Below are positions 3,517 through 62,163 of a stretch of DNA of 64,000 nt, in pieces. The stretch is from positions 3,370-67,369 of the forward strand of contig KV748294.1 in NCBI GenBank assembly GCA_001692895.1. Reading direction: 5' to 3'. Position numbers and translations under genes: made by a program. This DNA comes from Cenococcum geophilum 1.58 (Eukaryota; Ascomycota; Dothideomycetes; Gloniales; Gloniaceae). Below the pieces are notes generated by a model. The model saw only the letters and a list, made by a program, of their open reading frames with translations, had not been told where the DNA came from and did not search any database. The stretch's first letter is position 1. Each line of letters opens with the position of its first letter.

Positions 3517-3987
3517 AAGGCTCTGCACGAGGCTCTGCACAAAGCTCTACACGAAGCTCTGCGCGAAGCTCTACACAAAGCTCTACACGAAGCTCTGCAC
3601 GAAGCTCTACACGAGGCTCTACACGAAGCTCTGCACGAGGCTCTGCAGAAGCTCTGCACGAAGCTCTACACAAAGCTCTGCACGAGGCTCTGCAGAAGCT
3701 CTGCACGAAGCTCTACACAAAGCTCTGCACGAGGCTCTGCAGAAGCTCTGCACGAAGCTCTACACGAAGCTCTGCACGAAGCTCTGAAGAAGCTCTGCAC
3801 GAAGCTCTGAAGAAGCTCTGCACGAAGCTCTGCACGAAGCTCTGCACGAAGCTCTGCACGAGCTCTGCACGAAGCTCTGCACGAAGCTCTGCACGAAGCT
3901 CTGCACGAAGCTCTGCACGAAGCTCTACACGAAGCTCTGCACGAAGCTCTACACGAGGCTCTGCAGAAGCTCTGCACAAGGCTCTAC
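3517..3987. repeat. 12-bp minisatellite array (unit GCTCTGCACGAA)
   Basis: About 39 head-to-tail copies of a 12-bp unit with single-base variants (ctgcac/ctacac/gaagct/gaggct) and occasional 9-bp short units. Because 12 is divisible by 3 and the unit lacks stops in most frames, the array is open in several frames on both strands. The resulting apparent proteins (repeats of ALHE, CRAS, AELR) are by-products of the repeat. It is much more GC-rich than the DNA on either side. The same unit, read from the other strand, forms the array at 21535-22050. Confidence 0.9.
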
Positions 3988-4491
3988 CTAAGCTTACCCC
4001 CTTCTACGAAGCAAATCTATACCTACTAGCAGTCCTTAATTATTATTAAAGCTAGCTTATCAGTTTAGGTACTCTAGCTGCAGTAAGAAGAGGGCGGTGG
4101 GAGGGGTACGGCTGCTACGACTTAGGGTCGTCGGGCGCAATAATGAGACAACGAATTGGAATCGGGCAAATCGGGCAACGTAGTCTTCTTCGCCAGGTTT
4201 GATTTGGTAATTCTGGCCATCAGGAATAGCCTAGGGAGCTGTAGAAGCTGAGACAATTTGGCTCAAAGTAGGTGTATATAGGCCTAAATACCCCGCGCGG
4301 GACTAACAAAAATCCGAACCGTGTACCAGACCTTCTAACGAAGGTCTTGCCAAAAGCGGCTAGCGTCTTGGCAAGGTAAGCCTTGGCAAGAAGGTCTGGG
4401 AACGAGACAAGTTTGTATGGCTGATTTAGCGGCTGAGTCACAATTACGCAGGCGAGGAGGCCCGTGCGTTCAGCTACTGTAGATGTTACCC
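3988..4491. other. Less decayed spacer with an inverted repeat
   Basis: Moderate-GC DNA between the minisatellite and the first tandem unit. It contains an imperfect hairpin with 11-bp outer arms (CCAGACCTTCT at 4326-4336, complement at 4389-4399) and inner arms rich in CTTGCCAA/TTGGCAAG. One open frame on the minus strand (4220-4537) runs through the hairpin and into the neighbouring repeat. It has no recognisable protein features, so it is not called as a gene. Confidence 0.5.
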
Positions 4492-15654: not shown

Positions 15655-18600
15655 TATATTAAATAGCTTAGGAATATCTTATAAAGGGCTACTAAGTCCT
15701 ATAGAATAACCTTATAAAGGTAAAAAAGAAGGTTTATAACCCCTATAATGGCGAGGTTATTAATCTAGTATAGCTATAGGCTAAAACGGCCCTTCTATTT
15801 GTCTAGTTTAGGCTATATTATTAATAGCAGTACGTTAGGTAGTGTAATACCTATATAGCGGATTTCGAAGCAGCCTATTTATAAAGGGTATTTTACTATT
15901 AACCTTATAAACTCTTACGGGAGAAAGTTTAAGTAATAGCCTACTATCTACTCTTAGTTTTACCTCCTAGTGCGCTAAATCTAGTCCTTACTAACCCCCT
16001 TTAGCTCCACTATTTTAGCGCTAGCGCTTTACCTAATATGCGTCTTCTTTTCTAAGAAGACGCTAATATACTAAAAGGCCTTTATAACCTAATATTGCTA
16101 TAAGTTATATAAGAGGGCTACCTCGCAGTTCCTTATACTACTTTTAATTAGGCATATATTATACTATACTAAGCGCCTACTAAAATCCAGAAATAGCTCT
16201 GTACTAAGATTCTAGTAGTATAAAAGATAAAAAGCTAGCCTACTAAGTATATAAATAAGCGGCTTTCTATTCTATAGGGCCCTAATAGTCTTAAAGCGGC
16301 TATACTAGTTCTACTTACCTATGCGTATAGTAAATATTAAGGGTATATAGCGCGTAAGGCCTTTACCTTTAAACTTAAAGGTAAATAAATCCGAGATCTT
16401 AGTGGAATATTTATTACCGCCGTAGGTAAGTATATAGTGGCTTAGTAGGATATTAATAAGCGTATAAAAGTAGCACTTTAGTAATAAGGTGGCGCCCCTA
16501 GCCTAAAGCTTATAGTAGACATTTTAAAACTTATCCTTAGTATAGCCGTTAAGGAGGGTATTTTTACCCTTATTAGCGAACTGCTTTTTCTTATACTATA
16601 CATCCCTCCGCTATAGCGTCTTTAGGTACTCCCTAATACTATCCTCCCACGGAAATAGGTAGCTATTTATTTTTATAGCTTTCTGCATTTAATAAAGGTC
16701 CGTTAAAATGGTAATATAGCTATAAACTAACTACTATAAGAGCTATGTTTCCTCTTAGGGTATATTAATATTAGCTTTATAGCTCTTCCCTTTTAAGGGC
16801 TAGCCTATAACCTCCTTAATAATAAAAAGAAGTAGCTTATCCTTTATAATGGTATTACTATTATAGTACTGCTTTTATTTATAAAAGGCCTAAAGCTAAA
16901 TAACGCGTTAGCTATAAGGCGCGATACTTTTAATAGGAGGGGGGAACTATACCCTTTTTACCTTAAACTCTTTCTACTTTAGGTTATACGCTAAAGATAT
17001 ATTCTTAGGCCTAGCGTTATATATAAGGGTAAGGACATACTGCGCGTTAGCGTGTAATTTGGTATTATTAGCGATATTAATCTCTACGCGGCTAGTTAGC
17101 GCTATCTTATATAGTAGGTATAATAGTAGACGTGCTGCCGCGATTAAGGATTATATAGGGAGGACTTTTCTATATATATTTGGGCCCTAATGGCCCTAAT
17201 TACCCTATAGTCGGCGTTAATTAGCGGCTTAATTAGTGGGCGGCCCTTAATACGTATATATCTATAGCTTAGCACTAATAGCGCTATAGATATACGCGAA
17301 TATCCTATAGGTAGCTGGCTAAATACTTAACTTTTTCGCTAACTAACGATTAGCCGAGCCTCGAATACTAATAGTATATCCACAGTTAATTTTTAATCGC
17401 TAGTAATACCGCGCTTTTAATACCTATTAAGCGCTATGCGTAGAGCCTACTAAGCGCTTTTTATTTATACTAGAATGGTAAGAATCGGCTATAGGTTAAT
17501 AGAGATATTTACGTTTTAAGTTGCGCGCCGCTATTATATAAGCACCCTAAAGCACCCTATTAAACTTATATCGTACTAAAATAAGCCCCTAGGGGGCTAT
17601 AGATAAAGGCTATAATAGGACCCCTAGGCTTAATAAAATCGGCCTTTATACCTCTATATGGTAGAGCCTAGGAACCTAGTAGCTACTATTAATATTCTAT
17701 TTAGATTATATTAATAAACTACTAGAGTAAACGCAGAGACGTATATACGGCTACGTAGCGCCTACGCAGCGATATAGTAGTAGTAGTGTAAAAAAATTTC
17801 GCTAGGGGGTAAGCCCTAGTAAAAGTTTAAATATAGCTACTATATCTCTAATATATACGTTCGGTTATTTAAATTAATAAGTATTATCCTTTAGTATACC
17901 CCCTCCCTTTTATAAATACTATAAATACTATATAGTACCTATATATATACGCATACAATCCACGCCCTAAGCGTAGTAAAGCCCCCCTATTTTAATATTA
18001 CCCGGTAACCTAGGTATTTAGTTAATAGAAACTAATCCCCCCTAAATACTAGAGTGTCTTTTTATACCTTATAAATAGGTATAAGGGCCTAGGTTTGGGC
18101 CCTAGGGTAAAAGTAATACTAAGTTATATATACCCTATTATAGAAACCCTTTAATAAAGGAATAAATAAGAGACTTTAGTATATAGGCCTAGGCGGAACG
18201 TAAAAGCATTATTATTATTAGGAAATATTTATAGGAGACTTAGAAAAGGGGCTAGGGATAGGTATATAACTTTATATAGGCAATATATAGATATAGTAAA
18301 AATAGTTTAAATAGCAGATAGGGTAAAATAGGTATTTTAGACACTCCTATAGAGTCTTAGAGCAGTAACCTAACGGTATTTTTTCTTTTATTAATATAGT
18401 ATGGATGCTATTTAGAAGTATTACCTCTTATATTTCCCTTAGAGGTTTTTTATATACCTAAAAAATAGGGTTTTTCTTAGATAAGGAGGTTTTTTCTATA
18501 GGAATTAGTCTATATGGACCTATTAGGGGGACTAAGTTAGACGGTAAATTAAATCTATTATTAATAGGACCCCTTAGTATCTTATTAGAAGTTAGATATA

Positions 18601-20481
18601 GATAATATATATAACTATTTTAAAGCTTTTTTACCCGCTTAAAGCCGTTTATAAAGCTAATTTAGTAAGCACTATATCTACTTCTACTGTAGATTAACCT
18701 GCTATATAGCTACTTCCTTACTAACCTTCTAGGCCTATATAACCCGCTTAATCTCCTTAATAACCTTAAACCGTAGAGAGTATTATTAGACCTCCTTTTG
18801 CTAACTAGCTTATTATTTACTACCCTATTTAGAATTTAGCGCTATTATAAAGGGGTTACCTCCTAGCCCTTTAGTTTACTTATATTAAAAGGCCTATATA
18901 GAGTTTACTACGCGGCTTATATAGTATATAGGTAGAGATTTAGACCTTAGCTCTAGCTAGAACTGCGGCTTTAGCTATAGCTATAGCTGCAGCTATAGCT
19001 ATAGTAGTAGTAGCGGCGAAGCTATATAGGAAAGAGAGCCTATAGCGCTTACCTAAGCGGATATATATCTACTAAATCCTATAATAGATAGAGCTAAAGG
19101 GGCTACTTCTATAGGTGGATATAAGGGGTTAGTAGACTAGCCCTAAGGCTATATAGCTACTACCGCTGCTACTACCGCAGCTATAGCTAAAGGGGCTTCT
19201 GGTTAAAATATAAGGCCGCTAAATATTAGTAATTAAAGCTATAAAAACTAAGCCTACTAAGACTTATTTAGATAGTCTAATAAGCCCTTAACCTTGCTAG
19301 CTATCTACTTATTTTTAACATATAAAGCCTTTAGTTAATTAGTAAGGAGTAGTATAGCCTAATAAAGAATTAACAGCTAGTTTAGGCTCTCCTTTTCTTT
19401 TTATAGGTAGGGCTCTAGCTCCTACATAAAGGCTTTATACGCCTTATACTAAAAAATAGGGTAGCTCTATACTAAATAGCCTAGGAATATCTTATAAAGG
19501 GCTACTAAGTCCTATAGAATAACCTTATAAAGGTAAAAAAGAAGGTTTATAACCCCTATAATGGCGAGGTTATTAATCTAGTATAGTGGCTAAAACGGCC
19601 CTTCTATTTGTCTAGTTTAGGCTATATTATTAATAGCAGTACGTTAGGTAGTATAATACCTATATAGCGGATTTTAAAGCAGCCTATCTATAAGGGGTGT
19701 TCTACTATTAACCTTATAAACTCTTATAGGAGAGAGTTTAAGTAACAGCCTACTATCTACTCTTAGTTTTACCTCCTAGTGCGCTAAATCTAGTCCTTAC
19801 TAACCCCCTTTAGCTCCGCTATTTTAGCGCTAGCGCTTTACCTAATATACGTCTTCTTTTTTAAAAAGACGCTAATATACTAAAAGGCCTTTACAACCTA
19901 ATTTTGCTATAAGTTATATAAAAGGGCTACTTTACAGTTCCTTATACTACTTTTAATTAGGCATATATTATACTATACTAAGCGCCTACTAAAATCTAGA
20001 AATAGCTTTATACTAAGATTCTAATAGTATAAAAGATAGAAAGCTAGCCTACTAAGTATATAAATAAGCGGCTTTTTATTCTATAGGGCCCTAATAGTCT
20101 TAAGGCGGCTATACTAGTTCTACTTACCTACGCGTATAGTAAATATTAAGGGTATATAGCGCGTAAGGCCTTTACCCTTAAATTTAAAGGTAAATAGATC
20201 TAAGATCTTAGCGGAATATTTATTACTACTATAGGTAAGTATATAATGGCCTAGTAGGATATTAATAAGCGTATAAAAGTAGCACTCTAGTAATAAGGCG
20301 ACGCCCCTAGCCTAAAGCTTATAGTAGATATTTTAAAACTTATCCTTAGTATAGCCGTTAAGGACATCGGCAAAATATGGTACCCTTTCAATGGCCTTAA
20401 TGGTTGGTGGTTGACGCAATTGGCGCGCAGTTGAGGTCATTTGGCAACTCGACCGACTAGCCTATATCGTGTTTTTTTGAC

Positions 20482-20530
20482 ACGCAGCCTGCGCGCAGCC
20501 TGCGCGCAACCTGCGCGTAACCTGCTAGTA
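20482..20530. repeat. 11-bp tandem repeat (CAGCCTGCGCG)
   Basis: Four to five head-to-tail copies with C-to-T variants (cagcctg, caacctg, taacctg), GC-rich in AT-rich surroundings. Confidence 0.75.
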
Positions 20531-20699
20531 ATCTGCGCATTTGGCAACCATAATTATATTTACCTCTTTTATACTAATAGCATATTTTAAATAAATAAAA
20601 GCTATTTTAAAGCTATTTATAAGGCTAGCAAAATAAATATTATTATTTTAGATAATTTAATATAATATAGCGATGGTTCTCTTCTACCTATCTACTATA

Positions 20700-21115
20700 C
20701 CTATTGACTTACCTACCTACCTGCATCGCCTACCTATCTGTATCTACCTACTTATCTACATCGCCTACCTATCTACATCTACCTGTCTGTATTTGCCTAC
20801 CTATCTATATCTACCTACCTATCTATATTTACCTACCCGTTAGCATCTACCTACCTATCTATATCTGCTTACCTATCTACATCTACTTACCTAATCTGCA
20901 TCTGCCTGCCTATTTACATCTACTTATCTATATCTACCTACCTATTTACATCTACCTACCCGTTAGCATCTACCTACCTATCTATATCTACTTGGCCTAT
21001 CTGCATCTACTTACCTATTTGCATCTGCCTGCCTATCTATATCTGCTTACCTGTCTGCATCTGCCTACCTGTCTACATCTACCTACCCTATTAGCATCTA
21101 CCCTGTTTATGCCTA
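20700..21115. repeat. CTACCTAYCTACAT-type microsatellite
   Basis: An imperfect pyrimidine-rich tandem repeat (CTAC/CTAT/CTGC words in units of about 12-16 bp). It runs open in one plus-strand frame as repeated Y-L-P-I words. That open frame is a by-product of the repeat. Confidence 0.85.
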
Positions 21116-21179
21116 CCTGTCTGTGCTACCTTAATTTCGATCAATCGATCGAATCGTTTTATAGTGTTGGCTGGCTAGT

Positions 21180-21415
21180 CGTTGTCGTCTGGCTCTGGCG
21201 ACGGTCGTCTGGTTCTGGCGACGGTCGTCTGGCTCTGGCAACGGTCGTCTGGTTCTGGTAACGGTCGTCTGGCTGGCGACGGTCGTCTGGTTCTGGCGAC
21301 AGTCGTCTGGTTCTGGCGACGGTCGTCTGGCTGGCGATGGTCGTCTGGTTCTGGTAACGGTCATCTAGTTCTGGCGACGGTCGTCTAGTTCTAGCAACGG
21401 TCCTCTGCTGGCTGC
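21180..21415. repeat. 20-bp minisatellite (GGTTCTGGCGACGGTCGTCT)
   Basis: About eleven to twelve copies of a 20-bp unit with ggttctgg/ggctctgg/ggctgg variants, including shorter units. GC-rich and free of RIP-like decay. Confidence 0.88.
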
Positions 21416-21534
21416 CGTTCTGGTGCCTCCCTAGGTAGGGAGGATATAAAGAAGGAAGGAAGGGTAAAAAATAAGGTGGTTACATAGGGTAGAGGCACGT
21501 GTAGAGGCTATCGGGAATATAGCGGGGACCCGAT

Positions 21535-22050
21535 GCAGAGCTTCGTGTAGAGCCTCTGTACGCAGAGCTTCGCGCAGAGCCTCGTGCAGAGCCTCTGTAC
21601 GCAGAGCCTCGTACAGAGCCTCTGTACGCAGAGCTTTCTCGCAGAGCCTCGTGCAGAGCCTCTGTACGCAGAGCTTCGCGCAGAGCTTCGCGCAGAGCTT
21701 CGCGCAGAGCCTCGTGCCAGAGCCTCGTGCAGAGCTTCGTGCAGAGCTTCGTGCAGAGCTTCGTGCAGAGCTTCGTGCAGAGCTTCGTGCAGAGCTTCGT
21801 GCAGAGCTTCGTGCAGAGCTTCGTGCAGAGCTTCGTGCAAGAGCTTCGTGCAGAGCTTCGTGCAGAGCTTCGTGCAGAGCTTCGTGCAGAGCTTCGTGCA
21901 GAGCCTCTGTACGCAGAGCTTCGTGTAGAGCCTCGTGAAGAGCCTTATGCGAAGCTTCGTGCAGAGCTTTGTGCAGAGCCTCTATGCGCAGAGCTTCGTG
22001 CAGAGCCTCTGTACGCAGAGCTTCGTGTAGAGCCTTGTGCAGAGCCTCCA
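21535..22050. repeat. 12-bp minisatellite (GCAGAGCTTCGT), second locus
   Basis: About 43 units of the same 12-bp family as at 3517-3987, on the opposite strand. A near-perfect core lies at about 21,725-21,900. Flanking it are higher-order units carrying the extra word CTCTGTACGCAGAG. Long frames on both strands (up to about 206 codons) arise from the repeat and are not called as genes. Confidence 0.9.
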
Positions 22051-22189
22051 AGTAATAAGACTATAAGATTGTATGAGATTGTATGAGATTGTATAAGATT
22101 GTATAGGATTATATATAATAGTTAAATATATAGTATATAACTTTACCTTAATCGCACGTCAAGAAATATACAGTTAGCTTTTAAAGTTG

Positions 22190-22575
22190 TTAAGTAGGTT
22201 AACTACATATTAAGTTAGTTAAATTGTATGTTAAGTAGGTTAATTACGTGTTAAGTTAGTTAAATTGCATATTAAGTAGGTTAACTGCATATCAAGTTAG
22301 TTAAATTGCATATTAAGTAGGTCAACTGCGTATTAAGTTAGTTAAATTACATGTTAAGTAGGTCAACTGCGTGTTAAGTTAGTTAAATTATATATTAAGT
22401 AGGTTAACTACGTGTTAAGTTAGTTAAATTGCATGTTAAGTAGGTCAACTGCGTGTTAAGTTAGTTAAATTATATATTAAGTAGGTTAACTGCGTGTCGA
22501 GTTAGTTAAATTGCATGTTAAGTTGGTTAATTGCGTGTTAAGTTGGTTAATTGCGTGTCGAGTTAGTTAAATTGC
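22190..22575. repeat. 20/40-bp higher-order tandem repeat
   Basis: Alternating 20-bp half-units (TTAAGTAGGTTAACTGCGTG and TTAAGTTAGTTAAATTGCAT types) form an approximately 40-bp higher-order repeat for about nine cycles. A short 10-bp array (AGATTGTATG) precedes it at 22065-22112. Confidence 0.85.
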
Positions 22576-23655
22576 ATGTTAATTACGCGAAACGCGAAAA
22601 CCAAAGTCTACTTGAATCTCATCCTGCGAATATTTTCCCGATGGAGGGTATCTCTACCCTTATCGGCGAACTGCTTTTTCTTACGCTATACGTCCCTCCG
22701 CTATAGCGTCTTTAGGTACTCCCTAATACTATCCTCCCGTAAAAATAGGTGGCTATTTATTTCTATAGCTTTCTATATCTAATAGAGGTCTATTAAAACG
22801 GTAATATAGCTATAAATTAACCTCTATAAGAGCTATATCTCCTCTTAGGGTACATTAATATTGGCTTTATAGCTCTTCCCTTTTAAGGGCTAGCCTATAA
22901 CCTCCTTAATAAGAAAAAGAAGTAGCTTATCCTCTATAACGGTATTACTATTATAGTACTGCTTCTATTTATAAAAGGCTTAGAGCTAGATAACGCGTTA
23001 GCTATAAGGCGCGATACTTTTAATAGAAAGGGGGAACTATACCCTTTTTACCTTAAACTCTTTCTGCTTTAGGTTATACGCTAAAGATATATTCTTAGGC
23101 CTAGCGTTACACATAAGGGTAAGGACATGCTGCGCATTAGCGCGTAATTTGGTATTATTAGCAATATTAATCTCTACGCGGCTGGTTAGCGCTATCTTAT
23201 ATAGTAGGTATAATAGCAGACGTGCTGCCGCGATCGAGGATCACGTAGGGAGGACTTTTCTATATACATTTGGGCCCTAATGGCCCTAATTACCCTATGG
23301 TCGGCGTCGATCAGCGGCTCGATTAGCGGGCGGCCCTTGATACGCGTATGTCCACAGCTTGGCGCTGGTGGCGCTGTGGACATACGCGAATATCCTGCAG
23401 GTGGCTGGCTGAACACGTGACTTTTTCGCTGACCGACGATCAGCCGAGCCTCGAATACCATTAAAGCCACCTATTGCTTGACGGTAAAGTCACGTGAAAG
23501 AAATACTCTGCATAATGATAATTAGTCTCTAAGAAAACAGAACGAGAAATAGATATTCGCTTGTAGTAGCTTATTGATGAAATTAGAATGTAGAGTTAAA
23601 TATAAAACGTTAATGCGGATAGAATTTAGCTGATATAATCACGTGGAAAAATTGA

Positions 23656-24471: not shown

Positions 24472-27400
24472 ATGGACGCGTTTCGGAATACTAGAGCCAT
24501 ATGGCGGACAGGTGTGTTCTTTTGCTTCTTCCACACTCTTTCTTACCCATTTCTGAGTGTAATTCCTCAAACTCCACGCGTCGGTCTTCGTAGATTTTCT
24601 TTAAGGAAGCTCCCGCAAAGGCGTTTGTTTGCTACATTCTTGCTAACTAACTGAATAGTAGATCTTCTTCAGATGTTATAGATCTGACTGGGAGTAATGA
24701 TGACTCCGACGAGAGTCTGCCGTCCGCCGATATCTTTTTTAGCCCTCGTCCGCGAAATACGCCTGTGCCGTTGCCGAAGAACGTCAGGGGCCTCGTAGGC
24801 AAGACTCCGCCTACCCAAAAGTCAGCTCCGTCAAAGCATGATCGCTCAAACCATCGTAAATCACCAGCGGTGAACAGCGACTCAGAGGATAAAATATGGA
24901 AACGCAACTCCGTGGTTCTGGAGAGGTTAGCTCGGCAAGGGACACAGGCAGAAAAGCGAAGGAAACTTCATTCTGCGATGAGGAACTCGGAAGGTCGTCC
25001 AAACTTTGGTCGTAATATTAGCGAAGGACTGGGGAAGGAAGAGGGCAACGAGGCGTACAGCAGTTTTTCAGAAAATGATGCTGCGAACGAAAAGACCAAA
25101 AGGTCTTCGATTAGGAATGGTACACGGGGCAGTCCTCTTACTGTTCATCAGACTACTAAGAGTAACAAAAATGTCCTCACTGAAGGCGCATCTGGAGGTG
25201 ATCAAGATTGGATAAGTTCAGATTTGGCTGATCTTGAGGAGAGCACTGCGGGGCTTCAAGAAATCAAGAGCACAATCAGAACCTCTAATAAGGGCCTCGA
25301 ATATTTCCCACCCGGGTCGGAGATTCCCGATGAGACTGAAAGAGCTAGCTTGCTTGAAGCATTCAAATCAAGAGCGGAGCCACTACAAAAACCACCAAGA
25401 TTGTCCGCTTTAAATAAAACCGGTGAAATTGGTGCTGCTTCGTCATCCCTGATGTCAATGGGTGGGCACAAAACATTAAAAAGGAAAGCAGATGGCATAT
25501 TGAAAGAGAACGAGATATCCATAGCTCGTTCTAAGGAATACGACGATCTCACTCCTAATAGGACGTCTAGCCCTGATACTGCTGGTCTTACAGTTCCAGC
25601 CATATCTGCTCGGTTGACCCGAAGATCCTCCAGAAACAAATCCACAGGGTCAACCCAAACTCCACCTGAACTGCTTGCGGAGAACAGAAACGATAGAACG
25701 AACTCTAAAGTCGCTAGATATTCACTACCATACGAACCCATGGCGCCTAATAGTTCACTCGATCAATCTGGTGGTAATCCTAAAGGGAAAAAGTTCTCCA
25801 AAGAGGAGGATGATCGGATAATCTATATGAAAGAAGTTCTCGGATGGACATGGTCGGAAATTGGAAAACACGTCCCTGGCAGGAATGCTTATACTGTGCA
25901 AAGCCGATATTCAAGAGCGCTGTGCAATAATAGTGCGGGTGTATCAGATGTTCCTCTCGATTTAGTTCACCTGGCCTTTCCATCTGAGAACGATTCCGAT
26001 GACCCTAATACCACGCCCAAAGACACTCCTGGAATTTCTACAGCTCGACCAAGCTCTGAAGACTCAATTATGTCTGGCATTTCTCAGCCGACATACCCTG
26101 ATGATTCGGTAGTACCTAGCGCTACCCCAGCAACAGAGGACCTTCAACCCAAACACCTGGCGTTACGACGCGGTCGACCACCACCCGCGCTCGAAGCATT
26201 AAGGGAAAGCAATAAGTCTCAGCCGCAATTACGGAACAGGTCAGTCAGAGTACGATCGACTGAGGAACCACAGGGGACAAGATTGGAGCATTCGATTGAC
26301 TCAAGCTTTCCTGTTACAAAGAGAATCCTTCCTATGGACAGCCAGCGGGAGATTGCCTCGATCGCTATTTCAACGTCGGATCCATATTTCTACGCCGACT
26401 CTGAGAACAAATTACCTTATTTAAGGTTTGAAGAACGGCAGTCATTGCATCATGGCCTTGCAAATGGAAAGTGGAGCCCGCATGCCGTTTTGAAGTGGCA
26501 AGGCGCTGTTGTTCACGTTGATTTTCAGGAAGAAGAGATGGAGATATTGGAAAGCAGCATCATCAGAATCCTTTCACCATCCAAGTTACCAACATCTCGA
26601 TGTCTTCGCAAACGGATACAACGGATGTTGAAGAATGTCCCAGAAAACAGAATCTACCAGATTGCGTGGCATGGGAGAAAGGGCCGACGCTTGGGGACCC
26701 GTGACCGTGAAAGCGTTGAAGCATTTCTTAAGGATGCCGCTGCTGGCTTGCTTAATAGCCACTCGCATATTGAGAGGATTGGACCCGTCAAACCGGATCG
26801 GAGATCCGAGCAAAATGCTAAGATGTCGACTTCTACAATGCTGAGGCAGCGCGAACTGGGGATACAAGCAAGAAGAGGCTGGGCGACGGCGTCAAACCCT
26901 CTTTCTACTCGGATCAAAAATCACATGGCAGATACGATAGGGCCTGCATATTCTTTCACTGGAACTTCAAGTGATGTGAACACCGTAGCCTGGTCACCGA
27001 ATGGTCGGGTGTTTGCTGCAGGCTCTGCTTGTTTGGTGGACGACAACAGCATGCAGTATAATCGGCCGAACAATCTTCTCTTGGGAGATGTAGAGAACAA
27101 GACCTTGCTGGAGCTACCAGATCACCATATCATGCGAAAAAAGGCCCCAGCTGGCGTTAACTCTAGTCATTCCATGCATGTGTCTCAAGATCCACGCCTA
27201 TTTACGACAATATCGATGGTTGACTTCTCGCCGGATGGTGGGCGGATGTTTTCAGCCGGTTATGACAAAATTGTGCGAGTATGGGACACCACAAGCGAAG
27301 AAACGTTTTGCTGTGGCTCTCTTGAGCACAAAGCACCCGTCGACTTGATATCCGTAAGCCCCAAAGGACTTCTCGCCACGGGTTGTAGGCGCTCCTCAAA

Positions 27401-29135
27401 AAATGCCATTAAAGTGTTGGATTTTGATTATATCCTTAACACTGAAGAAGAGCGGTCAGGGATAACGTCCTACACGTCCCAAAAAGCAGTTGAAAGGTCT
27501 GACATGAAGATTATGCCGACTTGCCTCCGATTTGAGCCAATTTATGGCAGGCTGCTCCTAGCAGGCTTCGGCGCCAACTTCAAGGAAGATTGGCGCAATA
27601 CTAATGGAGAGATTTGTTTATGGGATGTCCAAACACAGCAGCAGCTCACGGTCCACGGCAATACTCGTAACGTTTTTGATTGCGCTTTTGATCCTCACCA
27701 GGTCCAAGCGCCATTGTTTGCAGTTGGATGCGTCGCTGGGACTAATGTGAATAGAGGGTGCCGTTCAATTGTCCGCTTCTATGACTGGCGGGCAGAATCA
27801 AAGTACGGTATGGTATTCGAGCTAGAATGTCCTGCACTGGACATGAACGATGTGGTATACTGGTTAGTACTGCTTCCAACGCCCTGTTACTGCTAGCTCT
27901 TAACAAACTACAGTCCTCACAATGATGTGTACTTTGCAGCCGGTTGCACTGACGGTAAAACTTACATCTGGGACATCCGCCGGCCGAATGACTTGCTCTA
28001 TACACTCTCTCACGGCGAACCGCTGCAGCCACTTGATGAACATGAACATCGTGAAATGCTTGATACAGGTATGCGATTTTGCTCTTGGGGCGACAACGCC
28101 ACGCGCCTCTACACCGGCTCGTCCGATGGCGTGGTTAAAGTCTGGGATATCACACGTTCCCCTGAAGATGTCTTTATCAAGGACCTCGTCACGCTTGACT
28201 CTGGCGTTATGTCTGGCGCTTTCAGCCCCGATAAAACCAGCTTACTTGTTGGCGAGGTTAACGGCTCGATTAATGTCCTCCAGGTCGGCCGAGAGGATTG
28301 CACTGTCAAGGAAATGGAACCTCTTCGCCTCATTTCAGCCTCTACTTACTCTCCAGAGTCTCCCACCCGTTCCAATTCACCGGCTTCCTCATCTACCTTA
28401 GACTTACTGGTTGACCCAGACTCAGGCGTTGCTATTGCAGCCGAGCTTGTTCGCTCAGACCAAATAGAAATCGTACCTTTCGGCGGTCTTCCAATCCGCC
28501 AAGCCATACAGGGTATCAATTACTCAGGGCCATACGACTCAGCCGATGATGCGTGGTTGCTCCGCGAGAAAGCACTTGATTCACAGCGCAATTTAGTCGA
28601 TAGCCCAGGAGAGCAATGCGATTTATTGGCCTGCAAAGACAGTATACTGAAGCTTACATGCGAAGAAGCCGGGGATTCGGGACGTAGCACTGACCGGATA
28701 CCCGATGAGTTAAGGAAAGCATGGAAGAAAGTGGGCTCGGATATCACCGTCGTGGCGGGAAAGACGAAATGTACAACTTGTGGGCGGCCTGCTCGGCCGA
28801 GTGTCGGCGGCGGACCGCAAACCATAACCGATCGCGAAGCGCTGTGTGAACGATGCGGATTCGAGTGCTTCCGGTGTGGGAACCGCGCCGTTGTGAGCTC
28901 CGAGACTGATGTGCTGTGGTGTTTGTCTTGTGATCGCGAGTGGGAGGTTGGAGCGTTGGGGTACGAGGCCCTTGAGCGCCGGAGAGGGTCCAAAAATGGA
29001 AGAGCGGCGAAGAGAGCGGAATGGAGGAGAGGCAGCGAAGAGTCCATTGAAGATGCAACTTTGGGAGATGAGATGAACGATTTGGCGGATTATTACCATT
29101 CGCTCTGGATAGATCGGCCGCCGTCCCCGCTCTAA
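24472..29135 (+). CDS. Large nuclear-type protein: Myb/SANT-like domain, WD40 repeats, C-terminal CxxC cluster
   Basis: Proposed exons 24472-24511, 24673-27862 and 27914-29135 give 1483 residues. Intron 2 (51 bp) joins MNDVVY to CPHNDVYFAAG cleanly. Intron 1 rests on the donor GTGTGT, branch GCTAAC and acceptor TTCAG, and joins WRT to DVIDLTG. Residues 1-380 are polar and probably disordered. A Myb/SANT-like helix set sits at about 386-430 (KEEDDRII...WSEIGKHVPGR). WD40-type blades run from about 775 to 1180 (SPDGG...VRVWDT; VKVWDI). The C-terminus (about 1363-1416) has four CxxC pairs: CTTC, CERC, CFRC, CLSC. Myb-like plus WD40 suggests a chromatin or substrate-receptor role. A DCAF-type heterochromatin factor (Raf1/DIM-9-like) is possible but unproven. 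First exon and start are the least certain parts. Confidence 0.8.
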
Positions 29136-31255: not shown

Positions 31256-31301
<46 letters not shown>

Positions 31302-31842
31302 ACCCCCCCCCCCCCCCCCCCCCCCCAGCGCCGCCGCCGCTGCCGACGCTCGATGGCAGTGTGCACTTCCCCAGGATGCTGCCCGCCAGGTCCGTCTGGA
31401 AGTAGATGTTCAGGGTCGCGTAGGTGCCCTGGCGCAGCGCCTGTTTCATCGCGAGGTCGTCGGCGTCGGTGACGCTGAGGGCCCATGCGTCGTTGATGGT
31501 CCAGGTCAGGTTGGCGAGCGAGAATCGGATGTTGTAGGCGTTGTAGGCCCCGTTGAGCGCGTGCATCTGGTCCTGCGCCATCTGCGGCGTGATGTCGTTT
31601 TTCTTGGTCGTCGAGGTCACGATGTGGAAGATGGCGAGGACGGTGATGGGGCTGGCGTCACGGGCGAGAAGAGAGGCGGCGCGCGCGGCGGGCGAGCCGT
31701 GGGGCGTGTTACTGTGGAGGGATTGGACCGTGTCCAGGAAGTCTTTGGTTGCGGCTGATGAGTCGGTCCCGCAGTCGAAGTGCTTGTAGTCGGTTGCGCT
31801 AGCCAGGAGGCTGAGCGAGGCAAGGAGAAGCGGCTTGTACAT
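30874..31842 (-). pseudogene. Secreted M43-family metalloprotease, frame-broken
   Basis: The N-terminus has a signal peptide (MYKPLLLASLSLLASA) and the pre-domain ends near LNIYFQTDL. The zinc site HETGHWLGLLH fits HExxHxxGxxH of pappalysin-type (M43B) secreted fungal proteases, and the Met-turn region reads DYMDYSADACYTVFT. Signal peptide and C-terminus share one frame, but the zinc-site part is in another. The first switch is in a G tract (C tract 31257-31326 on the plus strand). The second is at about 31,010-31,025, where one extra G before GATAGC creates a stop. A Tyr stands where relatives usually have a Cys just before the Met-turn. Either the assembly is wrong in the homopolymer or the gene is dead. 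The second slip, outside any long homopolymer, favours a dead gene. Confidence 0.75.
31257..31326. repeat. 70-bp poly-C tract (poly-G on the coding strand)
   Basis: 45 C, one A (31302), then 24 C. It lies inside the metalloprotease coding region where related proteins have a few Gly residues. This is an extreme tract for coding DNA and a likely site of assembly or sequencing error. Confidence 0.95.
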
Positions 31843-57416: not shown

Positions 57417-57745
57417 AGAGCTCTGCGGGGGAGCCCCGCACAGAGCTCTACTAAAGCTTAGCAAAAGCTCCGCACGAAGCTCTACGGAGGCTCCGCTCGA
57501 AGCTCTGCGGAGGCTCTGCTTGAAGCTCTGCGGAGGCTCCGCTTAAAGCTCTACGGAGGCTTCGCTTAAAGCTCTACGGAGGCTCCGCATAAAGCTTTAC
57601 ACAAAGCTCTATATAAAGCTCTACACAAAGCTTTTATATAAAGCCTTTGTAGTAGAGCCGTTATATATAGAACTGTTATACGTAAAGCTGTTGTGCAGAG
57701 CCTCCGTATATAGAGCTTCGTATAGAGCTTTATATAGAGCCTTAG
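57417..57745. repeat. Hairpin followed by degenerate 12-14-bp minisatellite, third locus
   Basis: A strong hairpin (AGAGCTCTGCGGGG at 57417-57430 with its near-complement at 57434-57449) starts an array of GCTCTACGGAGGCTCCGCTT-type units. These resemble the GCTCTGCACGAA minisatellite but have diverged. Orientation switches within the block: GCTC words to about 57,620, then GAGC words to about 57,740. The block therefore looks like an inverted pair of arrays. Confidence 0.7.
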
Positions 57746-60720: not shown

Positions 60721-62163
60721 AATACCTAGTACAACCTCTTTACTAAGCTAGTACACCTTAGTAGCGTTAGCAGCACCTACCTACCTATAATCCCAACACT
60801 GTTTGCTACCTTTATTGCAGATCCGCTACGTTAAAAATTACGTTAATAATACGCCCTAAACGCTAGCGTATCCCCTTCCCTCCTATGGCCTTTGCAAGCC
60901 ACGAACACTATAATCTACGCCAGTTATTATATTAATTAAACGTCTAAACTGGGCTAACGGAATAACCCTAACTAATAAGACTACTGCGGAAGATATTACT
61001 AACTATATTAATTTTAAAATTAATAAGTATACTAGCTATAACTTTAAAGATAAAAGCTTATAGGATTTATACTAAGAGGACTTTAATAATTTTAAGGTAT
61101 AAACATTTAAGGACGCTAATAGGTTTGTAATTAAAAGACTTAAATAGCTACTCCGACGTAATAGAGTATAGGTCTTTAATAAAAAGAGCAAGTTAGTACT
61201 ATAAGCACTATATAACGTCGCTTATAAGGACAACCGTACGGAATAGTTAGATAAAGAAATTAAACTATTTATTAATAACGAAGGACCCTTTAATTCGTAT
61301 GCCATAAACTACCGCCTTAAATCACGTTCATTAACTCCCTTAATATTGTCTACTGCTCTAGCTTTAGCTGTCTTAAATGACCTTCCTATAGCCGAGCTTC
61401 CCTTACCTATAAACGTTACAGCTTTGCCTGCATAAGCTCCGCCTACATAAGCCTTATCCGCGTAAGCTCCGCTAGTTTTACCCTCTTCCTTAACTAAAGC
61501 TAAGGATCTATGGCAGCTAAGCTCGCACAAACCTCCGCCTACGCAAGCCCCGTCTATATAAGCTCTGTCCGCGCAAGCTCCGCCTACGCAAGCCCCGTCC
61601 GCACAAGCTCTGTCTGCGCAAGCTCCGCCTATAAACGTCACGGCTCCGTCTACAAACGTTACGGTTTCCTTAATAAACGTTACAGCTCCCTCTATAAATA
61701 CCCCTATAATACCTTAACCACCTATTGCATCTATACCCCAGTAAGCTGCACTAACTGCTACTTAACAGTAGCACTACCCTTAAACACCCGTTGTACTTAT
61801 ACCCTAGTAACCTACCTAGTAATAGTATAATTTTTAGCAGCCTACCTAGTAGCAGCAGTACGACCCTTGGCAACCTAGCTGACAATAGTAACTAAACCTA
61901 GGAGGAGGAACAACCTTATATAATGCTTGGTTATCAGCCCTTCTACCTATTTTCCCCTATAAACACCCTAGTAACACCTTATACGCGCCTACCTATTTCC
62001 ACTATAATATCCGTAATATCCGCAACGATATCCGCAACGTCTGTAATATCCGTAATATTCGCAATACCTAAAACATCCGCGATTACTGCCCTAAGCACCT
62101 GTTGACCTATATACTTCTCCTTTATACTTTCTTACCTTCTTTCCTTTTTGTAAATGTTGCCAG

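Follow-up and report, generated by a model that had tools for sequence, protein, structure and literature searches.

A tandem-array-bearing element of Cenococcum geophilum and the DNA transposon family to which it very probably belongs

The element in the window and its empty site

The window analyzed here is a 64,000-nucleotide stretch of Cenococcum geophilum 1.58 (contig KV748294.1, positions 3,370 to 67,369), and its feature of interest is a 2279-bp block at 20365-22643 in which short inverted ends enclose a succession of tandem arrays. Comparison with the rest of the genome indicates that this block belongs to a dispersed family, here termed family A, which is very probably a family of non-autonomous DNA transposons with an interior made up mostly of inherited tandem arrays. 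Both ends of the window copy, and the GA that flanks each of them, are exact, confirming the coordinates proposed when the block was first recognized from its inverted ends. The left copy of the target site duplication (GA, 20363-20364) is followed on the plus strand by the 5′ terminal inverted repeat (TIR) CATCGGCAAAATAT at 20365-20378 and by a single-copy subterminal segment at 20379-20482, which alignment with three other copies (L025, L030 and L032) shows to be common to a 0.5-kb subfamily of miniature inverted-repeat transposable elements (MITEs). At the other border, a 3′ single-copy subterminal segment (22582-22629, plus strand) precedes the 3′ TIR (22630-22643, reading CATCGGGAAAATAT on the minus strand) and the right copy of GA at 22644-22645.

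Between these borders tandem repeats detected with Tandem Repeats Finder (TRF) cover 1642 of the 2279 bp (72%). The six arrays, all read on the plus strand, begin with about four copies of an 11-bp unit (CGCAACCTGCG) at 20483-20525 and about 22 copies of a 17-18-bp unit (TACCTACCTATCTACATC) at 20710-21102. The third array, about 11 copies of a 20-bp unit (GTCGTCTGGTTCTGGCGACG) at 21184-21407, lies with a spacer on either side in a segment at 21136-21535 (plus strand, ending in ...GGGGACCCGATG) that BLAST alignment with locus L041 identifies as a module in common with a second family, B. It is followed by about 41 copies of a 12-bp unit (TGCAGAGCTTCG) at 21534-22045, the same unit as in the arrays of a third family, C, by about five copies of a 10-bp unit (TATAAGATTG) at 22062-22115, and by about nine copies of a 41-bp unit composed of two halves of about 20 bp at 22188-22558. 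The original prediction had the 11-, 20-, 12- and 10-bp units right; it gave 12-16 bp for the second array, which is in fact 17-18 bp, and 20/40 bp for the last. Its description of a block with arrays in place of genes also stands. The nine open reading frames (ORFs) of at least 60 amino acids that overlap the block all lie within or across arrays except for one of 68 amino acids that crosses the 3′ end, and the Pfam matches of the longest (206 amino acids, inside the 12-bp array) all fall under every cut-off.

The history of the site is preserved in a sister unit at 15655-17368 (plus strand), in which the element is absent. The sister-unit segments 15655-16555 and 16553-17368 match 19468-20364 (94%) and 22643-23458 (90%), respectively, and join at a single GA (16554-16555). 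The empty site reads ...gttaagGAgggtat... and the filled site ...gttaagGA[element]GAgggtat, as expected from the earlier claim that the block entered as one piece. The surrounding sequence carries a strong signature of the type left by repeat-induced point mutation (RIP), with a CpA index of 0.37-0.47 around the window element versus 1.27 at the 5′ end of the element itself, and the flank index is below that of the element ends in 28 of 28 family A copies. Because the flanks are RIP-marked and the 5′ end of the element is not, the window insertion probably took place after RIP-type decay of the repeat unit around it.

Copies of family A and the inheritance of their arrays

The genome holding the window comprises 177,193,698 bases in 162 contigs; PMC5023957 gives 178 Mb for Cenococcum geophilum and places the species in Mytilinidiales. 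The exact 14-bp end of family A has 667 matches in this genome (323 + 344), against 16 (7 + 9) for a control with the pattern reversed, and copy numbers from DNA searches such as these are lower bounds. Both ends could be read, at no more than two mismatches per end, in 28 copies (20 listed pairs and copies from other searches). Three loci with only one end in the fetched stretch (L003, L004 and L007) stand outside the pair counts, and the outer end was used in L008, where two 3′ ends lie in tandem. About 400 bp at the 3′ end of L008 look tandemly duplicated, giving the two successive ends.

All 28 copies are flanked by an identical dinucleotide; flanks taken at shifted positions as a control agree in 1, 2 and 1 of the 28, and an identical 3-bp flank occurs once in 28. 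The dinucleotides are TA (13), AA (7), TG (3), AT (2), CT (2) and GA (1), with TA accounting for 16.6% in the flanks. A matching 2-bp flank of variable sequence in every copy points to a 2-bp target duplication for which TA is favored and not obligatory. The search proposed earlier for further blocks with both termini yields hundreds of ends and a consistent duplication, and places the window copy in a mobile family. Mean identity among 22 copies of the main subfamily is 93.7% and 93.6% at the 5′ and 3′ ends, respectively. Array-bearing copies free of nested elements measure 1740-2980 bp; the length of the largest (L011, 7.1 kb; L016 and L029, both 5.6 kb) and of L027 (3.5 kb) comes from nested insertions. 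Positions 2101-5607 of L029 are taken up by another element, nested in the family A copy and decayed by RIP, whose ends are GTGTGGCCAACAG / CTGTTGGCCACAC.

These properties are those of a non-autonomous TIR transposon: inverted ends with a duplication in 28 of 28 copies, an empty site in one case, and no transposase in the window copy. MITEs are usually under about 0.8 kb, a size that the array-bearing copies exceed and the 0.5-kb subfamily does not. Three other assignments fit poorly or not at all. The strict TA target of Tc1/mariner elements (pogo/Fot) fails in 15 of 28 family A copies and in five of ten newly read family B pairs, and the 3-bp TWA duplication of PIF/Harbinger elements is absent from family A, TWA being what the DDE_Tnp_4 elements of this genome show where their borders could be read. 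DINEs are Helitron-type elements that lack TIRs and target duplications, both of which family A possesses.

The arrays follow the element from site to site. TRF comparison of 25 copies shows one and the same succession of the four main arrays (17-18, 20, 12 and 41/20 bp) in 23, which occupy different sites, and all six arrays are detected in 11 of these 23. The two exceptions are L026, which is mostly N, and L025, a 515-bp member of the MITE subfamily whose sole array consists of about three 11-bp units. Individual units were compared in 23, 23 and 22 copies for the 12-, 20- and 41-bp arrays, excluding L026 and copies with fewer than four recognized units. The 12-bp units differ at a mean of 1.97 positions within a copy versus 2.00 between copies, and 101 of 200 label shuffles give a value as low. 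Since units within a copy are as different as units of separate copies, the 12-bp array travels with the element, and among variants of the three units that were seen at least four times none is confined to a single copy. Four insertions that all differ in their target duplication (L015, L017, L027 and L028) have in common a duplicated module, in which a 20-bp array, a TACC array and a spacer are followed by a second 20-bp array, which indicates that an altered array architecture is itself inherited by transposition. The claim that a mobile unit transports the arrays is thereby substantiated.

The MITE subfamily has family A ends and, as its one array, that of the short 11-bp unit. Three of its copies measure 497-560 bp, 13 near-full-length members are found among the matches listed, and the subfamily shares its first ~150 bp and last ~30 bp with array-bearing copies. 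The copy L032 is interrupted by a nested insertion within its first 200 bp. The mobility of this subfamily with the 11-bp array alone implies that the other arrays are not required for movement. Considered together, the data suggest a mechanism in which a transposase whose gene lies elsewhere or has since disappeared would recognize the ends and perhaps subterminal motifs, and the whole block would move by a cut-and-paste type of reaction. The arrays would have been born in an ancestor and copied along with the element, with unit numbers later altered by slippage or unequal exchange, and the window copy would have landed in a repeat unit that had already decayed.

Shared arrays, the mobilizing transposase and competing explanations

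The arrays are not confined to family A. Exact matches to 48 bases of the 12-bp array number 1365 in the genome versus 30 for the control, and the first 100 of the 1365 form 21 loci on contigs 1-2, nine of them within 3 kb of an exact family A end. For 49 bases of the 20-bp array the corresponding numbers are 133 versus 1, and three of nine loci are near a family A end within the stretch where such ends were listed. Loci were clustered by hand, and this linkage refers to exact ends among the matches listed, from contig 1 to part of contig 5. Eighteen loci had no exact family A end nearby, and nine of them were fetched (five of 12 for the 12-bp array and four of six for the 20-bp array). One, L036, is a decayed family A copy. 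Two (L040 and L041) are complete members of family B, and two others resemble that family, L038 by one decayed end and L039 by interior sequence only. L033 and L035 are family C copies that carry the 12-bp array between ends TTATCTCAG, with a perfect 8-bp duplication in both. The remaining two, L034 and L037, hold 12-bp arrays in repeats with parts of the family C interior or beside other inverted-repeat sequences, and were not assigned to a family. The idea that the mobile unit seeds free-standing satellites at new loci therefore finds no support at these nine loci (one A, four B or B-like, two C and two not assigned).

Family B is defined by ends CGTCAGGAAAACGGGA, which have 148 exact matches versus none for the control and form 22 pairs, 1.4-2.2 kb long, among those listed. 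The pairs L040, L041 and L083 have a TA duplication, and ten of ten further pairs have one of 2 bp of any sequence, five of them TA. The module common to families A and B holds the 20-bp array, an array of TACC type and spacers as far as ...GGGACCCGATG, and the two families differ on both sides of it; positions 772-1171 of the window element align with the family B element of L041 in two pieces at ~84% identity. Of the 20-bp loci listed, 20 of 49 lie within 2.5 kb of an exact family B end. For family C the 8-bp duplication in two of two copies is what a hAT-like element would show, although this length also occurs outside hAT. A C-like element with TTATCTCA ends, an 8-bp duplication CCTCTGTA and a 12-bp array of its own (element coordinates 1281-2725) is nested in the 12-bp array of the family A copy L027, and shows one way in which arrays of different families can be united. 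The window itself has a second 12-bp array on the minus strand (3517-3985; 3517-4050 with a flank of ~50 bp that by eye resembles the flank of family C), which is probably a C-like remnant and not a family A copy. Degenerate AAGCTC-type arrays also occur in the AT-rich region at the right of the window (57453-57740 and 61533-61698), the first ~73% similar to the 12-bp arrays.

The best explanation for the sharing of modules among families A, B and C, at about even odds, is nested insertion together with recombination between array-bearing elements. A broader proposal, which we advance tentatively, is that the array cassettes form an exchangeable module adopted by several transposon families with different transposases (those making 2-bp and 8-bp duplications), the arrays acting as landing and recombination sites for the next element. 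If so, satellites would spread as cargo traded between transposons, and the module might persist by aiding mobility or escape from silencing. A possible alternative, on a par with this proposal, is that all three families inherited their arrays from one ancestor and only the ends diverged. The ends of A and B do align as CRTCRGSAAAA, both families follow the 2-bp rule, and the similarity of the spacers fits a common origin, yet A and B are unlike outside the shared module, and the different ends and 8-bp duplication of family C make descent an unlikely source of its 12-bp array. It is less likely again that the arrays are an old host satellite, not made by transposons and captured independently by several of them. 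The presence of 12- and 20-bp arrays in three families would fit such captures, as would the two unplaced 12-bp loci and the 12 of 21 listed 12-bp loci that lie away from an exact family A end, of which five were fetched. However, seven of the nine fetched loci away from such ends are transposon copies or similar, the second array of the window is probably transposon-derived too, a long free-standing satellite was not seen among the loci examined, and the A/B module includes spacers that are not repeats.

The lineage that mobilizes family A may be CMCT/PlavakaB-like, an assignment drawn from end sequences and duplication length that we hold at somewhat below even odds. Ends in the CMCT clade are mostly CA..TG, with duplications of 2-5 bp; in PlavakaB the ends are CATCA..TGATG and the duplications 2 or 3 bp long (PMC12730594). 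The family A ends, CATCG..CGATG, agree with those of PlavakaB at the first four bases and depart from them at the fifth. A full-length relative encoding a transposase between the same ends, as anticipated by the original prediction, was not found at the loci examined in this genome. Family A copies outside the window contain only array-derived, nested or unidentified short frames, six of which were compared with Pfam and gave nothing above the cut-off. Exact family A ends followed by unknown subterminal sequence number three, fewer than the ten of the control. Among the 48 divergent 5′ ends (T/C class), 27 were inspected (20 of them at 1.5 kb) and proved to be array-bearing, MITE, interrupted or, in L031, apparently a chance match; no transposase was recognized among them, their frames being stop-rich and no profile search having been made.

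Placement of family A in the PHIS (Harbinger/ISL2EU) group instead of the CMCT/Plavaka lineage is improbable. The genome does contain 66 matches to DDE_Tnp_4, but wherever borders could be read among the 15 of these loci that were scanned they consist of TWA targets followed by GG-type ends. Loose end-like matches at three of the loci (L042, L043 and L055) are not family A ends of a transposase element, the single real family A end (in L043) lying beyond the element. YqaJ, a partner protein of ISL2EU, has no match in the genome. What speaks for the PHIS group, besides the number of DDE_Tnp_4 matches, is that Harbinger-related elements may have duplications of 0, 2 or 3 bp (PMC12730594).

Several observations weigh against the transposon reading of family A or against the details of its assignment. 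No transposase was recognized between family A ends among the copies, divergent ends and loci examined. The fifth base of the ends differs from that of PlavakaB, and family B ends are CGTCA..TGACG, that is, CG..CG and not the CA..TG usual in the CMCT clade. In the 23 copies with the main arrays, the 11-bp array was recognized only 18 times and the 10-bp array only 15 times. Inverted similarity between the 5′ and 3′ subterminal segments, for which the number of shuffles as good out of 300 was 151 in the window copy, 1 in L022, and 1, 0 and 6 in the MITEs L025, L030 and L057, is clear in two of these three MITEs, borderline in L022 and absent in the window copy. The 20-bp units differ at 3.47 positions within versus 3.68 between copies and the 41-bp units at 4.53 versus 4.91, with none of 200 shuffles as low in either case, so that some local turnover has taken place. 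All of the findings, moreover, come from one assembly. It is nonetheless highly improbable that the arrays grew locally, at each site, after an ordinary MITE copy had landed there, since the mobile 11-bp-only subfamily with the same ends, the range of 4 to 52 recognized 12-bp units per copy and the weak within-copy similarity of 20- and 41-bp units are outweighed by the fixed array order in 23 of 25 copies, by variants that are not copy-specific and by a duplicated module common to four separate insertions. The existence of further copies, and of large arrays that did not expand separately in each of them, leaves the original prediction standing on both of the points at which it could have failed, despite the MITE subfamily with the same ends.

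Elsewhere in the window, two neighboring long ORFs on the plus strand (24765-29135) both contain WD40 repeats, joined in the first by a Myb-like domain, and have the appearance of a single large WD40-repeat gene. A nearly pure C run of 70 bases (97% matches) lies at 31257-31326, and the closest relative from a named organism of a coproporphyrinogen oxidase gene is that of Lophium mytilinum (84% identity over 78%).

Relation to known systems

The foldback element Tetris carries its repeats in long inverted ends, whereas family A has short ends and central arrays. Tetris, from Drosophila virilis, is a DNA transposon reported to have supplied satellite building blocks (PMC4079207). The BrickBuilt MITE of Porphyromonas gingivalis (PMC4596501) is like family A non-coding, with small inverted ends and a minisatellite body. 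BrickBuilt is bacterial, with 19 copies in one strain and one array of a 23-bp unit, in contrast to the several ordered arrays and hundreds of ends of the fungal family. Animal satellite-motif MITEs and DINEs are likewise non-autonomous elements with internal tandem repeats and can found satellites, but one repeat is named per element in the account of PMC9659126, whereas family A combines several arrays with TIRs and a 2-bp duplication.

MITEs that contain a single minisatellite were thus already known. Among fungi, Mycosphaerella graminicola belongs to the same class as the host of the window. Nine of its 13 MITE families have 2-bp duplications, and some combine the same ends with different interiors (PMC4522978). 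Of those nine, eight use TA and one CT, unlike the several dinucleotides of family A, and the available text of that paper mentions no internal array set. PlavakaB resembles family A in being fungal, in its short duplication and in its similar ends, but the Plavaka families were reconstructed from Agaricomycotina with an encoded transposase, whereas no transposase could be tied to family A at the loci examined in this genome. The view that no fungal element of this make-up had been described holds among the titles and abstract openings listed from one open-access library, which omits most subscription papers and so is weak evidence of absence; it does not extend to other organisms, where MITEs with one minisatellite are known (PMC4596501, PMC9659126).

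What appears to be new is a high-copy family with several ordered arrays and with array modules that are found again in two further families with other ends, the three families following at least two target rules. The results suggest that many of the dispersed minisatellite loci of this genome are transposon cargo, which is relevant both to repeat annotation and to the growth of a large repeat fraction. Compared with systems in which one element carries one repeat, family A and the families that share its modules offer a case in which the spread and shuffling of satellites by DNA transposons can be tested directly.

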